A stretch of 44,946 bases of DNA from Thioalkalivibrio sp. Lineage in GTDB: Bacteria > Pseudomonadota > Gammaproteobacteria > Ectothiorhodospirales > Ectothiorhodospiraceae. Below, in pieces: positions 4,257 through 36,676 of the stretch (position 1 is its first letter; each line of letters opens with the position of its first letter). Below the pieces are notes generated by a model. It was not told the origin of the DNA. It saw only the letters and a list, made by a program, of their open reading frames with translations, and did no database searches. The stretch covers positions 1 to 44,946 of the forward strand of contig RECA01000094.1 of assembly GCA_007692435.1 (NCBI GenBank), in the 5' to 3' direction. The translations under genes were made by a program, and so were the position numbers.

Positions 4257-4371
<115 letters not shown>

Positions 4372-23541: not shown

Positions 23542-23618
23542 CGGGGTATAGCGCAGTCTGGTAGCGCGCCTGCTTTGGGAGCAGGATGTCGGGGGTTCGA
23601 ATCCCTCTACCCCGACCA
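23542..23618 (+). tRNA. tRNA-Pro (TGG)
   Basis: CGGGGTA...TACCCCG acceptor stem, loop TTTGGGA, GGTTCGAATCC T arm, encoded CCA. Confidence 0.95.
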
Positions 23619-23634
23619 CTGCTCCACGCCACAC

Positions 23635-23711
23635 GCGCTCGTAGCTCAACCGGATAGAGCATCGGCCTTCTAAGCCGACGGTTGCAGGTTCGAGTCCTGC
23701 CGGGCGCGCCA
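23635..23711 (+). tRNA. tRNA-Arg (TCT)
   Basis: GCGCTCG/CGGGCGC acceptor, anticodon loop CTTCTAA, encoded CCA. Confidence 0.95.
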
Positions 23712-23747
23712 CCGCCCCAGGAAGTGGTCCAGTTACAGTGATACGGT

Positions 23748-23824
23748 GGTGACCGTAGCTCAGTTGGTAGAGTCCCGGATTGTGGCTCCGGTTGTCGTGG
23801 GTTCGAGTCCCATCGGTCACCCCA
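23748..23824 (+). tRNA. tRNA-His (GTG)
   Basis: GTGACCG/CGGTCAC acceptor with extra 5' G opposite C73, anticodon loop TTGTGGC, encoded CCA. Confidence 0.95.
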
Positions 23825-23835
23825 CCCCCCATTGC

Positions 23836-23911
23836 GGGCCGTTAGCTCAATTGGCAGAGCAGTAGACTCTTAATCTATTGGTTGTAGGTTCGATTCCTAC
23901 ACGGCCCACCA
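23836..23911 (+). tRNA. tRNA-Lys (CTT)
   Basis: GGGCCGT/ACGGCCC acceptor, anticodon loop CTCTTAA, encoded CCA. Confidence 0.95.
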
Positions 23912-31765: not shown

Positions 31766-31839
31766 TGGCTGGGGGACCAGGATTCGAACCTGGGTTGACG
31801 GAGTCAGAGTCCGTAGTCCTACCGCTAGACGATCCCCCA
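31766..31839 (-). tRNA. tRNA-Gln (CTG)
   Basis: Reverse complement TGGGGGATCGTCTAGCGGTAGGAC...ACTCTGACT...GGTTCGAATCCTGGTCCCCCAGCCA. Confidence 0.94.
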
Positions 31840-32308: not shown

Positions 32309-32737
32309 CTAGATCTCCAGCGGCTGCGGCTGCTGGGCGGCATGCCGATGCTCGGTGCCCGCGTAGACCTTCAGCTTCTTGAACATCGCGCGACCCAGCG
32401 GGTTCTTCGGCAACATCCCCTTGACCGCGAGCTCCAGCACGCGTTCGGGGGAGCGCTCGATCATCTGCGCGAAGTTCGCCTGTTTCAGGCCGCTGGGGTA
32501 GCCGGAGTGCCGGTAGTACATCTTGTCGTTGGCCTTGTTGCCCGTGACGCGGATCTTCTCGGCGTTCACCACGACGATGTAGTCCCCCGTATCCACGTGA
32601 GGCGTGTACACGGGCTTGTGCTTCCCGCGAAGGCGGCGCGCGATCTCGGTGGCCAGCCGGCCCAGGGTCTTGCCGTCCGCGTCGACGATGTACCAGTCGC
32701 GTTCGACTTCTGACGGCTTGGCGCTGATGGTCTTCAT
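32309..32737 (-). CDS. rplM: 50S ribosomal protein L13
   Basis: [47 protein letters not shown]. Confidence 0.97.
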
Positions 32738-32852
32738 GCCTGTGGCTCCGGGTGCGGGGCGTTTCGGAAAGCCCGCAATCATAACGGACACGCACCCGGG
32801 GTTCAAGGTGCGCAACGAGAACTACACAATGAAGAACTGCACAACGAAAGAC

Positions 32853-32873
32853 GCCGGCCCGCGAGGGGCCGGC
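32853..32873 (-). terminator. Intrinsic terminator downstream of the DUF4168-like gene
   Basis: GCCGGCCC-GCGAG-GGGCCGGC; followed on the minus strand by GTCTTTCGTT. Confidence 0.6.
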
Positions 32874-32901
32874 GCTCCGTAGGCTGAAGGTCCGGGTCCG
32901 C

Positions 32902-33291
32902 TTACATGCGGTCCAGGGCCTTTTCCTGGACTCGCTCCATGAGTTCGGGATCGTTCTGCAGCGCCATGGCGACCTCGTTGTACTCCTGGACGCTCATGCC
33001 CGACGCCTCGACGGCCTGCATCATCTCGTCCTGGGCCTCCTGCTGAAGGGCCTGGGCCTCGGCTTCGTCGGAGGCGCCATGCAGGCGTTCCGTGTATTCC
33101 TCGCGGATATCCTGCACCGCGACGAAGGCGTCGACGAAGGTGTCCACGGTCTGGTCGGTCAACGCCGCGGTCTGTGGCGTGGTCTCACCGAAGGAAGGCT
33201 GGCCGGCGCCCTGCTCCTGTGCGAGGGCGGTGCCGCCAGCGGCGAACAGGGCGGCCAGGGCGATGGTCAGTGCGGTCTTGCGAATCGTCAT
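32902..33291 (-). CDS. DUF4168-like exported protein
   Basis: [25 protein letters not shown] signal peptide; [21 protein letters not shown]...[28 protein letters not shown]. Confidence 0.78.
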
Positions 33292-33485
33292 TGAATAACT
33301 CCTTTGAGTTTGCAGTGCTTGCGACGGGTACCAATGCAGCAACCGTGCCAACGACCCACGTCCGGCACCAAAAAGTCTCATGATCAATGACTTATGGCTA
33401 TTCCCGCAGGGCCGGAGCGCGTCCTCCTGTCCCTGTACGCACGGCGCAATCCGCCACATGTGTCGAATCGATACGGCCTGCCCGG

Positions 33486-34868
33486 TCACAGCTCGTCGCC
33501 CAGCTTCCGATAGAGCGTCTTGCGACCGATGCCGAGGATGCGCGCCGCACGCTGCTTGTTCCCCTCGGTGTGGGCGAGCACCTGCCGGATATAGCGGTTC
33601 TCGAGTTCCTCCAGCGTTTCCCACGCTTCGTCGTGCTCGCCGTCGCCCCGCAGCCCTGCCACGGATGGATCCCGGAGCGGCGCGTCCGCGCGGACCCGCT
33701 CGGGGAGATCGTCCAGCCGGATCACCCCGTCGCGGGCGAGTGTGGCCGCCCGCTCGACCAGACCCGCCAGTTCGCGAACATTGCCCGGGAAGCGGTAGCC
33801 CAGGAGCCGCCGCATGGCCTCGGGCTCGATCCGTCTGACCGAAAGCCCCTGTTCGAGGGCGTGACGGCGCAGGAAGATGTGCAGCAGCCGCGCAATGTCT
33901 TCGCCGCGTTCGCGCAGGGGCGGAACCTCGATGCGGAAGGTCTCCAGCCGAAAAAAGAGGTCCTCGCGCAGCTGGCCCTCCGTCATCAGTTCGGTGACAT
34001 CCCGATGCGTGGCCGCAACGATCCGCACATCCGTCGGGATCTCTTCGTTGGCACCCACCGGCCGCACCCGACCGTCCTGGAGCACACGCAGCAGCTTGGT
34101 CTGCATGGAGGCCGGCATCTCGCCGATCTCGTCCAGGAACAGCGTGCCTCCGTCCGCCTCCAGGAAGAGGCCCCTGCGCGAACCCTTCGCACCGCTGAAG
34201 GCGCCCGCCGCGTGCCCCAGCAGCTCGGATTCCAGCAGGGTCTCGGGGATGCCGGCGCAGTTCAGCGCCACGAATGGGCCGTCTGCACGGGGGCTCTCCT
34301 CGTGCAGGGCGCGCGCGACGAGCTCCTTGCCGGTCCCGGACTCCCCGGTGATCAGCACGCTCCCGTCCGAGGGGGCGATGCGCCGGATCAGGTCGAACAG
34401 GCGCAGCATCGCCGGGCTCTTTCCCTGCATCCCGTGGAAGCCGCGGTCCCCCAGCACCTCCCGGTACTGCTGGACCTCGGCGCGCAGCTGGCGTGTCTGC
34501 AGCACCCGCTGCGCCGCCAGCCGCAGGTGCTCGAGGTCCACCGGCTTGGTCAGAAAGTCATCGGCCCCCGCCTTCAGCGCGCTGACCGCCTGGTCGATGG
34601 TGCCGAAGCCGGTCAGCATGATGAACCCGGGCGCCGGCACCAGCGTGCGGGTCGCCTCCAGCACCGCGAAACCGTCCGCCTCCGGCAGACGCAGGTCGCT
34701 GACCACCAGCGCGAAGCTCCGTTCGCCCAGCACCGCCATCGCCTGCTCGGCACTGGCCACCGCCGTCACGTGGTAGCCCGCATCCGAGAGTTCCTGCTGC
34801 AGCAGCTCGCGGTGCCCGGCATCGTCCTCGACCACGAGCACCATTTCCCGGGCACGATCATCCGTCAT
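33486..34868 (-). CDS. NtrC-family sigma54-dependent response regulator
   Basis: Receiver ALVVSDLRLPEADG; AAA+ GESGTGKELVARALH, AAGAFSGAKGS loop, GGTLFLDEIGEM; Fis-type HTH NKQRAARILGIGRKTLYRKL. Confidence 0.93.
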   Translation of the reverse strand: MTDDRAREMVLVVEDDAGHRELLQQELSDAGYHVTAVASAEQAMAVLGERSFALVVSDLRLPEADGFAVLEATRTLVPAPGFIMLTGFGTIDQAVSALKAGADDFLTKPVDLEHLRLAAQRVLQTRQLRAEVQQYREVLGDRGFHGMQGKSPAMLRLFDLIRRIAPSDGSVLITGESGTGKELVARALHEESPRADGPFVALNCAGIPETLLESELLGHAAGAFSGAKGSRRGLFLEADGGTLFLDEIGEMPASMQTKLLRVLQDGRVRPVGANEEIPTDVRIVAATHRDVTELMTEGQLREDLFFRLETFRIEVPPLRERGEDIARLLHIFLRRHALEQGLSVRRIEPEAMRRLLGYRFPGNVRELAGLVERAATLARDGVIRLDDLPERVRADAPLRDPSVAGLRGDGEHDEAWETLEELENRYIRQVLAHTEGNKQRAARILGIGRKTLYRKLGDEL

Positions 34869-36349
34869 CGTCCATTGCCTCCCGCCGCCGGCAGCGTGAT
34901 CACGAAACGCGTGCCGGGTTGCCATTCACGATCCAGCCAGAGCTCGCCGCCATGGTCCTCGACGGCCGCGTGGGCGACGGCCAGCCCGAGGCCGGTGCCC
35001 TGCCCGGTCGGCTTGGTGGTGAAAAAGGGTTCGAAGAGCTGGTGCGCGTCCTCTTCCGCGATCCCGGGGCCATCGTCGGTTACGCTGATTTCCACCCCGT
35101 GCGGCGCGTCGTTCGCGAGCCGCCGCCAGTCAATGCGGACCCGCCGGCTGGCCGCATGGATCGCATTCTCGATCAGGTTGCCCAGCGCCTGTTCGAGCCG
35201 GGCGGGGTCGGCACGCAGGGTGAGTGCATCGTCCTCCCCGGCATCGCTGCCGGACCCGGTCTCGACCTCGATTTCCGGACGCCCGGCCCCGATCCGCACC
35301 CTCGTGACGACGTCAGCCACCAGGGCCGGCAGGACGATCTCCCGCGTGTTCAGCGGGTTGCGCCGTGCGAAGTTCAGGAGCTGGCGCACGATGTGCTCCA
35401 CGCGGCGCAGCTCCGCCAGCAGGCTGCGGATCTCCGCGATCGCCGACGAGTCCTCGGGCATCTCGCGCCGTGCCCGCTGCGCGCGACCGGCAATCACCCC
35501 CAGCGGCGTGCCGAGCTCGTGCGCAACGCCCGCCGCCAGTTGACCGATCGCGGCCAGCTTCTCGGACTGGCGCAGCTTCTCTTCCAGCTCCGTGCGCCGG
35601 GCACGCTGCGCCTCCAGCGCCCGCTCCGAATCCTCGCGCCGAGCGATCATCTCGTTCATCGTGGTCGCGAGCAGGCGCAGCTCCTGAGGCCCCTGCTCCG
35701 GTACGCGCAAACCACGGGTCCCGTCGCCGACCTGGCGCATCGCGTCCGCCAACCGGCTGACGTGGCGGCCGACCGCGCGGTGATATCCAATCAGTACCAC
35801 CAGCAGGAACAGCGCCGACAACAGCCCGATCGCCAGCGTACCCTGCCAGCGCATCTGTGCGATGTAGGCCTGGAACCGGGTCACGTCCCGGGTGATCTGC
35901 AGCAGTCCGATGATCCGGCCACCGGCATCCGTCAGCGGCAGAAAGAAGGAAAAGACCTCGCGACCCTGCCGTTCCTCGAAGGCGCCCTGGCTACCGCCCT
36001 CGGTGATCACGCGGGCCTCGCGCCGGCGCTCGAGCAGCGGGCTGCGCGGGCCGCTGGTCGCGACCAGATCTCCGTGGAAGTCGTACACGTAGACGCCGAA
36101 GACCTGCTCGAGCTGAAAGGCGGAGTCCAGGGCCTGCTGCACGTCCAGCGCGTCCCGCCGGATCATCGCGGTCGAAATGGGCAGTCGGATGGATCGCGCC
36201 ACCAGTTCAATGTCCTCCTGCATGCGCAGCTCCATCTGGTGTTCGAATTCGCGGAGCCCCAGCAGCCCCAGCGCCACGAGCAGCCCCAGCAGCGGCAACA
36301 GCACGAAGGCGATCACGGCGTTGCGCAGATTGTTGAATCGCAGGAACAT
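34865..36349 (-). CDS. Membrane sensor histidine kinase
   Basis: Two TM segments, HAMP, H-box VAHELGTPLGVI, NLIENAIHAA, DDGPGIAEED, GTGLGLAVAHAAVEDHGG; ATGA overlap with the regulator start. Confidence 0.92.
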   Translation of the reverse strand: MFLRFNNLRNAVIAFVLLPLLGLLVALGLLGLREFEHQMELRMQEDIELVARSIRLPISTAMIRRDALDVQQALDSAFQLEQVFGVYVYDFHGDLVATSGPRSPLLERRREARVITEGGSQGAFEERQGREVFSFFLPLTDAGGRIIGLLQITRDVTRFQAYIAQMRWQGTLAIGLLSALFLLVVLIGYHRAVGRHVSRLADAMRQVGDGTRGLRVPEQGPQELRLLATTMNEMIARREDSERALEAQRARRTELEEKLRQSEKLAAIGQLAAGVAHELGTPLGVIAGRAQRARREMPEDSSAIAEIRSLLAELRRVEHIVRQLLNFARRNPLNTREIVLPALVADVVTRVRIGAGRPEIEVETGSGSDAGEDDALTLRADPARLEQALGNLIENAIHAASRRVRIDWRRLANDAPHGVEISVTDDGPGIAEEDAHQLFEPFFTTKPTGQGTGLGLAVAHAAVEDHGGELWLDREWQPGTRFVITLPAAGGNGR

Positions 36350-36455: not shown

Positions 36456-36485
36456 AAAAAAAAGGCGCGGACCGAAGTCCGCGCC
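36456..36485 (-). terminator. Canonical intrinsic terminator (9-bp stem, TTCG tetraloop, 8 T)
   Basis: Reverse complement GGCGCGGACTTCGGTCCGCGCCTTTTTTTT. Confidence 0.93.
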
Positions 36486-36552
36486 AATTAACCACCAAAG
36501 GAGGATGGAGGAGTACGCTGACGGTTGCGGGGGGGCAACCAATCAACGTATG
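36456..36552 (-). ncRNA. Candidate small RNA or attenuated leader with tandem CCUCC motifs and a UUCG/U8 terminator
   Basis: Minus-strand TTGACA (36579-36584), weak -10 TAGAAC (36558-36563, 15-nt spacer), GGTTGC-C-rich loop-GCAACC hairpin, ACTCCTCCATCCTCCTTT, then GGCGCGGAC-TTCG-GTCCGCGCC-TTTTTTTT. Confidence 0.55.
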
Positions 36553-36676
36553 AGCATGTTCTAATATATGCCCTTCCCTGTCAACCCCGCACTGCAAAAA
36601 AATGATTCGCCGCTGCCAATGGCGGCCGCGGGGCGCGTTTGCAACAATGTGGCCCGAACCCTGAACGGCCACCGCC

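Follow-up and report, generated by a model that had tools for sequence, protein, structure and literature searches.

Between a histidine kinase gene (ATG at 36349) and a gene for an MBL-fold hydrolase (36677, plus strand), the 44,946-nucleotide stretch of Thioalkalivibrio sp. DNA analysed here (the window) carries a minus-strand segment with promoter, hairpin and terminator elements, which raises the question of whether the segment is a small-RNA (sRNA) gene in its own right or the regulatory leader of a neighbouring gene. An earlier note made from the sequence alone had proposed an sRNA with tandem anti-Shine-Dalgarno motifs and, alternatively, an attenuated leader of the kinase gene. The elements that it described were all found in place on the minus strand, namely TTGACA, a hairpin with a C-only loop, ACTCCTCCATCCTCCTTT (36514-36497, spanning the region of both CU-rich boxes), a terminator with a TTCG loop, and eight Ts. 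According to our reading of the sequence, 36584-36456 holds a complete sRNA gene with promoter, hairpins and terminator, whose features are listed below together with two neighbouring genes.

36579..36584, minus strand: -35 element TTGACA, from the sequence; invariant in 30 of 30 family loci
36556..36561, minus strand: -10 element GAACAT after a 17-nt spacer, from the class promoter logo and the family alignment
36456..36549, minus strand: small RNA, predicted 94 nt, from promoter plus terminator, covariation and fold; start A36549 predicted from the -10 position
36514..36550, minus strand: hairpin 1 with C-rich loop, from covariation; base 36550 lies one base ahead of the predicted start
36507..36514, minus strand: site 1, ACUCCUCC, a mostly unpaired linker complementary to GGAGGAGU, from pairing probabilities; invariant in 30 of 30
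36492..36508, minus strand: hairpin 2, CCAUC[CUCCUUU]GGUGG, from covariation; site 2 is its loop (36503-36497)
36464..36485, minus strand: terminator hairpin with TTCG loop, from the sequence; two-sided changes at 8 of 8 modelled pairs
36456..36463, minus strand: eight-T tail of the terminator, possible Hfq site, from the sequence
34865..36349, minus strand: histidine kinase (HAMP, HisKA and HATPase_c by Pfam), neighbour only
32309..32737, minus strand: rplM, ribosomal protein L13 (Pfam PF00572, E 7e-51), neighbour only

The promoter is stronger than had been supposed. The earlier note had described a weak -10 element with a 15-nt spacer; however, a spacer of 17 nt, the ideal distance for this pair of elements, gives GAACAT, with GAAGAT or GAAAAT as its counterparts in relatives and with A at position 2 and T at position 6 conserved. 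The promoter is conserved class-wide: when 32 class-level promoters were aligned on TTGACA, their logo displayed the pattern TATTAGAAAAT, in which A25 and T29 are invariant, and TTGAC was present in 77 of the 90 class loci, compared with 10.3 in shuffles. The spacer also contains, ahead of the -10 element, ATATTA (36567-36562), whose class-wide conservation is unusual for a spacer and which may be an operator or an extended promoter element.

The predicted RNA begins at hairpin 1, followed by the linker ACUCCU, hairpin 2, which was missing from the earlier description, an A/U-rich spacer, the terminator and the U-tail. The fold of the 106-nt segment reached -45.7 kcal/mol versus -23.6 +/- 3.2 for shuffled sequences (z = -6.96), and none of 200 shuffles was as good. 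The conserved structure as a whole was supported by 98.3% of cells paired among 87 distinct sequences in an alignment fitted to the structure, where 0 of 500 shuffles reached the observed values and sliding the structure along the alignment reduced paired cells to 32-60%; the MAFFT alignment A2 gave 99.4%. Hairpin 1, examined in 30 genomes, displayed two-sided changes at 5 of its 7 outer pairs and had 97.6% of its cells paired, and hairpin 2 displayed them at 2 of 5 pairs, with 98.9% paired in the 87 sequences and 99.6% in A2. An alternative pairing of hairpin 2, CC.CCA/UGG.GG, chosen by RNAfold, was rejected, as it paired 98.0 versus 99.6% of cells and fails with loop insertions. Read on the opposite strand, the U-G pair of hairpin 2 would become A-C, which supports the minus strand as the transcribed one. 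Both of the CCUCC boxes reported previously are present in a conserved RNA fold; however, they do not form one single-stranded tandem, the first being the linker and the second the loop of the invariant hairpin 2. According to the pairing probabilities, linker and CUCCUU loop are mostly open.

The sRNA stretch was identified in 39 of 58 related genomes, and a 25-nt core, ACTCCTCCATCCTCCTTTGGTGGTT, is invariant in 30/30 family loci, as are TTGACA and TATT.GA, whereas sequence lying further upstream than the promoter can hardly be aligned across these same loci; this conservation indicates that the elements are more than chance. In a covariance search, of the kind suggested in the earlier note, the core model (R1) at a cut-off of E <= 1e-4 matched 146 of 369 evenly drawn Gammaproteobacteria genomes, corresponding to 110 of 271 genera; at E <= 1e-10, by our own count, the matched genomes carry over 50 different family labels. 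Carriers include purple sulfur bacteria, Thiothrix, Sedimenticola and symbionts. The Thioalkalivibrio genome has one copy (81 bits with R1, the next match scoring 24 bits); elsewhere, tandem copies resembling sibling sRNAs were observed, three in L263 (G318:C3:140500-143300) and two each in L054 and L040. No match was obtained among the plasmids and viral contigs searched. A phylum-wide draw gave R1 matches in 24 of 299 genomes, the weak ones being PrrF look-alikes or chance: weak hits beyond the class, none scoring above 37 bits, appear to be chance, and the Pseudomonas-like ones were rejected as PrrF look-alikes (PrrF, 157.9 bits, in L226). Pseudomonas PrrF (L226, L227, L228, L230) has AUCUCCUCAUCAGG ahead of its terminator and is weakly matched by R1, a resemblance that is perhaps convergent. 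Judged from sequence, the locus is a real, deeply conserved gammaproteobacterial anti-Shine-Dalgarno sRNA gene that has so far lain below Rfam thresholds, and conservation, structure and known relatives strongly support the earlier anti-Shine-Dalgarno reading.

The genomic neighbourhood is conserved in part. Of the 90 class-level matches whose flanks were long enough, 67 have rplM-rpsI as the next genes downstream, on the strand of the RNA. In Thioalkalivibrio the sRNA is separated from rplM by a kinase-NtrC pair and a gene for a small protein (window 32309-36349). This small gene (32903-33291, minus strand), located between NtrC and rplM, has an AAAGGAG ribosome site and a secreted-looking product. 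In Chromatiaceae, Sedimenticola and Thiodiazotropha (L049, L093, L142, L245 and others) the sRNA is found between queA and tgt, both on the opposite strand, and in Ectothiorhodospira and some relatives it adjoins purH, these gene names being our reading of the translations. The core stays the same whether a copy sits at rplM, at queA/tgt, beside purH or ahead of the kinase, which indicates that the sRNA works independently of its neighbour and does not depend on any particular gene following it. Other RNA genes in the window comprise four tRNA genes in a row (23542-23908, plus strand), a further tRNA (31769-31839, minus strand) and a small SRP RNA (4266-4362, minus strand).

These arrangements bear on the readings in which the RNA acts in cis. 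That it might be an attenuator or riboregulated leader of the histidine kinase-NtrC operon is suggested by the kinase start, about 106 nt beyond the terminator, and by the presence of the kinase gene after the RNA in all Thioalkalivibrio loci listed; yet most other families keep the same promoter, core and terminator with no kinase behind them, the RNA preceding rplM-rpsI in most and lying at queA/tgt or purH elsewhere. Since the kinase-NtrC pair stands between the sRNA and rplM-rpsI in Thioalkalivibrio, the RNA is not to be taken for a kinase leader, a role that we regard as extremely improbable. An ancestral attenuator leader of rplM-rpsI, displaced in Thioalkalivibrio, would account for the position of these genes immediately 3' and on the same strand in most of the matches, and is nonetheless unlikely: the related RNAs S17 and NmsR are trans-acting according to the literature, the distance to rplM ranges from 89 to 690 nt, and copies occur at unrelated loci, some of them beside opposite-strand genes. 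Neither a conserved antiterminator alternative nor a constant downstream gene was found across loci. Of 79 sequences, only 2 have a competing pairing stronger than the terminator, and the core complement at rplM starts never exceeded 6 nt (67 of 67), which together argue against attenuation and against rplM as a target.

A different possibility is that the RNA acts on most mRNAs rather than on defined targets, as a general translation damper mimicking the 16S tail. In its favour, CCUCCUUU resembles the usual 3' end of 16S rRNA (the end of the 16S gene was looked for in this assembly and not found), and cloned RNAs of the related family RF02278 are toxic in E. coli according to work cited in PMC4603805 and PMC5688073. 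Conversely, few start codons in the genome are preceded by a long complement (2 genes for AAAGGAGGA; 10 places for GGAGGAGU, about three of them clear genes), and over-production of S17, a member of that family, is not strongly toxic (PMC11722255), so that we consider such a damper very unlikely.

In our judgement the locus is, with high probability, a stand-alone sRNA gene whose boxes pair with a limited set of Shine-Dalgarno sites, probably with Hfq, and block translation. Its own promoter and terminator would yield a free RNA of about 94 nt, in which two exposed pyrimidine boxes, the ACUCCUCC linker and the CUCCUUU loop, copy the anti-Shine-Dalgarno end of 16S rRNA. These boxes, probably assisted by Hfq (an hfq gene is present in the genome), would pair in trans with a restricted group of mRNAs, at ribosome-binding sites having an extended Shine-Dalgarno, and the pairing would block their translation, with fccA of the sulfide dehydrogenase operon as the best candidate. 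The analysis establishes the anatomy of the gene, its deep conservation and covariation, its synteny over the class and its kinship in sequence with RF02278. Transcription, Hfq binding, translation block and targets are what we infer from the anatomy and from the relatives.

Regarding targets, GGAGGAGT occurs at 10 places in the Thioalkalivibrio genome, about three of which correspond to clear genes, encoding a cytochrome c, a PCu(A)C copper chaperone and a universal stress protein. Next to the cytochrome gene, on its downstream side, stands a gene that we read as an FccB-like flavoprotein, so that the cytochrome gene is probably fccA of sulfide dehydrogenase. Its start bears GGAGGAG(U), a 7-11-nt complement of the core that 20 of 22 copies retain, at protein identities as low as about 47%; the site (L319, G000:C12:24474-24492; orthologues L320-L338) reads GGAGGAG(T) in DNA, is complementary to site 1 and occurs genus-wide. 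fccA is the best-conserved predicted target, but only a lead, because strong ribosome sites are conserved anyway: its motif may simply be one of these, and Shine-Dalgarno matches are easily found for any such RNA. For site 2, AAAGGAGGA precedes the ATG of two genes, ppsA and a DUF4399 gene; ppsA, the best match (9 nt), retains 7 nt in three near relatives and elsewhere was not found at the stringency used, or differs, and is a weak candidate.

Trans-acting sRNAs usually evolve fast and are rarely traceable past an order. Here, the core of an sRNA is invariant within its family, and core, promoter and locus can still be recognised under more than 50 family labels, joining an RNA family so far described almost only from Betaproteobacteria to a large gammaproteobacterial set. 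For organisms about whose RNA regulation very little is known, it provides a regulator that can be tested, and it raises the puzzle of how an anti-Shine-Dalgarno RNA avoids the shutdown of all translation. Tentatively, and with more doubt than confidence, we suggest that the gene may have been born beside rplM-rpsI before the beta/gamma split, been retained in much of both classes, and been lost or altered beyond recognition in, for example, enterics, and that in sulfur oxidizers it could control energy metabolism, including fccAB, through a genus-conserved 8-nt pairing.

With respect to known systems, no Rfam family reaches its gathering score at the sRNA locus, and the below-threshold matches point to RF02278, NmsRb and SorY. 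The core sequence was not found in print in our literature search, nor was a gammaproteobacterial family found described; the RF02278-type family was described in 2020 as exclusive to Betaproteobacteria (PMC7011215), and a 'betaproteobacteria toxic small RNA' is listed in one paper on the genome of Aeromonas salmonicida. The earlier note had named the cuckoo RNAs as its example, but the motif CCUCCUCCC of these (Rhodobacter CcsR) is absent from the window RNA, which reads CUCCUCCAUCCUCC. Cuckoo RNAs, Rhodobacter SorY (RF02651) and SorX (RF02784) likewise combine short CU-rich stretches with a terminator, and the window RNA scores weakly with SorY (25.3 of 111 bits) and SorX (16.3 of 46.6 bits).

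The closest described relative is instead RF02278, 'Betaproteobacteria toxic sRNA', followed by Neisseria NmsRA/NmsRB (RcoF, NgncR_162/163; RF02877 for NmsRb). The NmsRs have three stem-loops, with anti-Shine-Dalgarno boxes between SL1 and SL2 and in the SL2 loop, and repress TCA-cycle genes via these two boxes (PMC5362039). The window RNA has the same placement of boxes in linker and SL2 loop; however, it obtains 25.6 bits with the NmsRb model (threshold 52), and is a single copy where the NmsRs form a tandem sibling pair. The layout with two CU-rich boxes is also shared by the Burkholderia RF02278 RNAs, whose levels rise in biofilm, under starvation and in glucose medium, and whose predicted targets are mostly transport and metabolism genes (PMC5688073). 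Bordetella S17 is Hfq-dependent, processed by RNase E, and represses BP2158 via site 1, as shown with compensating mutations (PMC11722255).

Besides S17, RF02278 includes the Burkholderia double-hairpin RNAs ncS03/05/27/62 and bdhR1. The window RNA obtained 33.1 bits with its model (E 4.5e-5), below the gathering threshold of 50 bits, and aligned over the full model length (1-64), having the two-hairpin layout of the family (CUCCUCC before a hairpin, CU-rich loop, terminator); a second match in the same genome (C51, 43 bits) was rejected as a gene terminator with no CUCCU boxes. Common to both are the CUCCUCCA linker, the CU-rich-loop hairpin ending UGG-[A/U]U, and the terminator that follows. 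The window RNA differs in its loop CUCCUUU, its covarying 5' hairpin with a C-rich loop, its own TTGACA...ATATTAGAA promoter, its single copy, and its host outside Betaproteobacteria. Several RF02278-positive genomes also carry the RNA upstream of rplM, such as L209, L212 and L222, which exceed the RF02278 cut-off and whose hosts are Burkholderiaceae-like (a label drawn by inference), and locus L207, also at rplM, bridges the two sets with 64.6 bits for R1 and 65.6 for RF02278. The shared rplM locus, L207 and the joint alignment A4 make common descent appear more likely than convergence.
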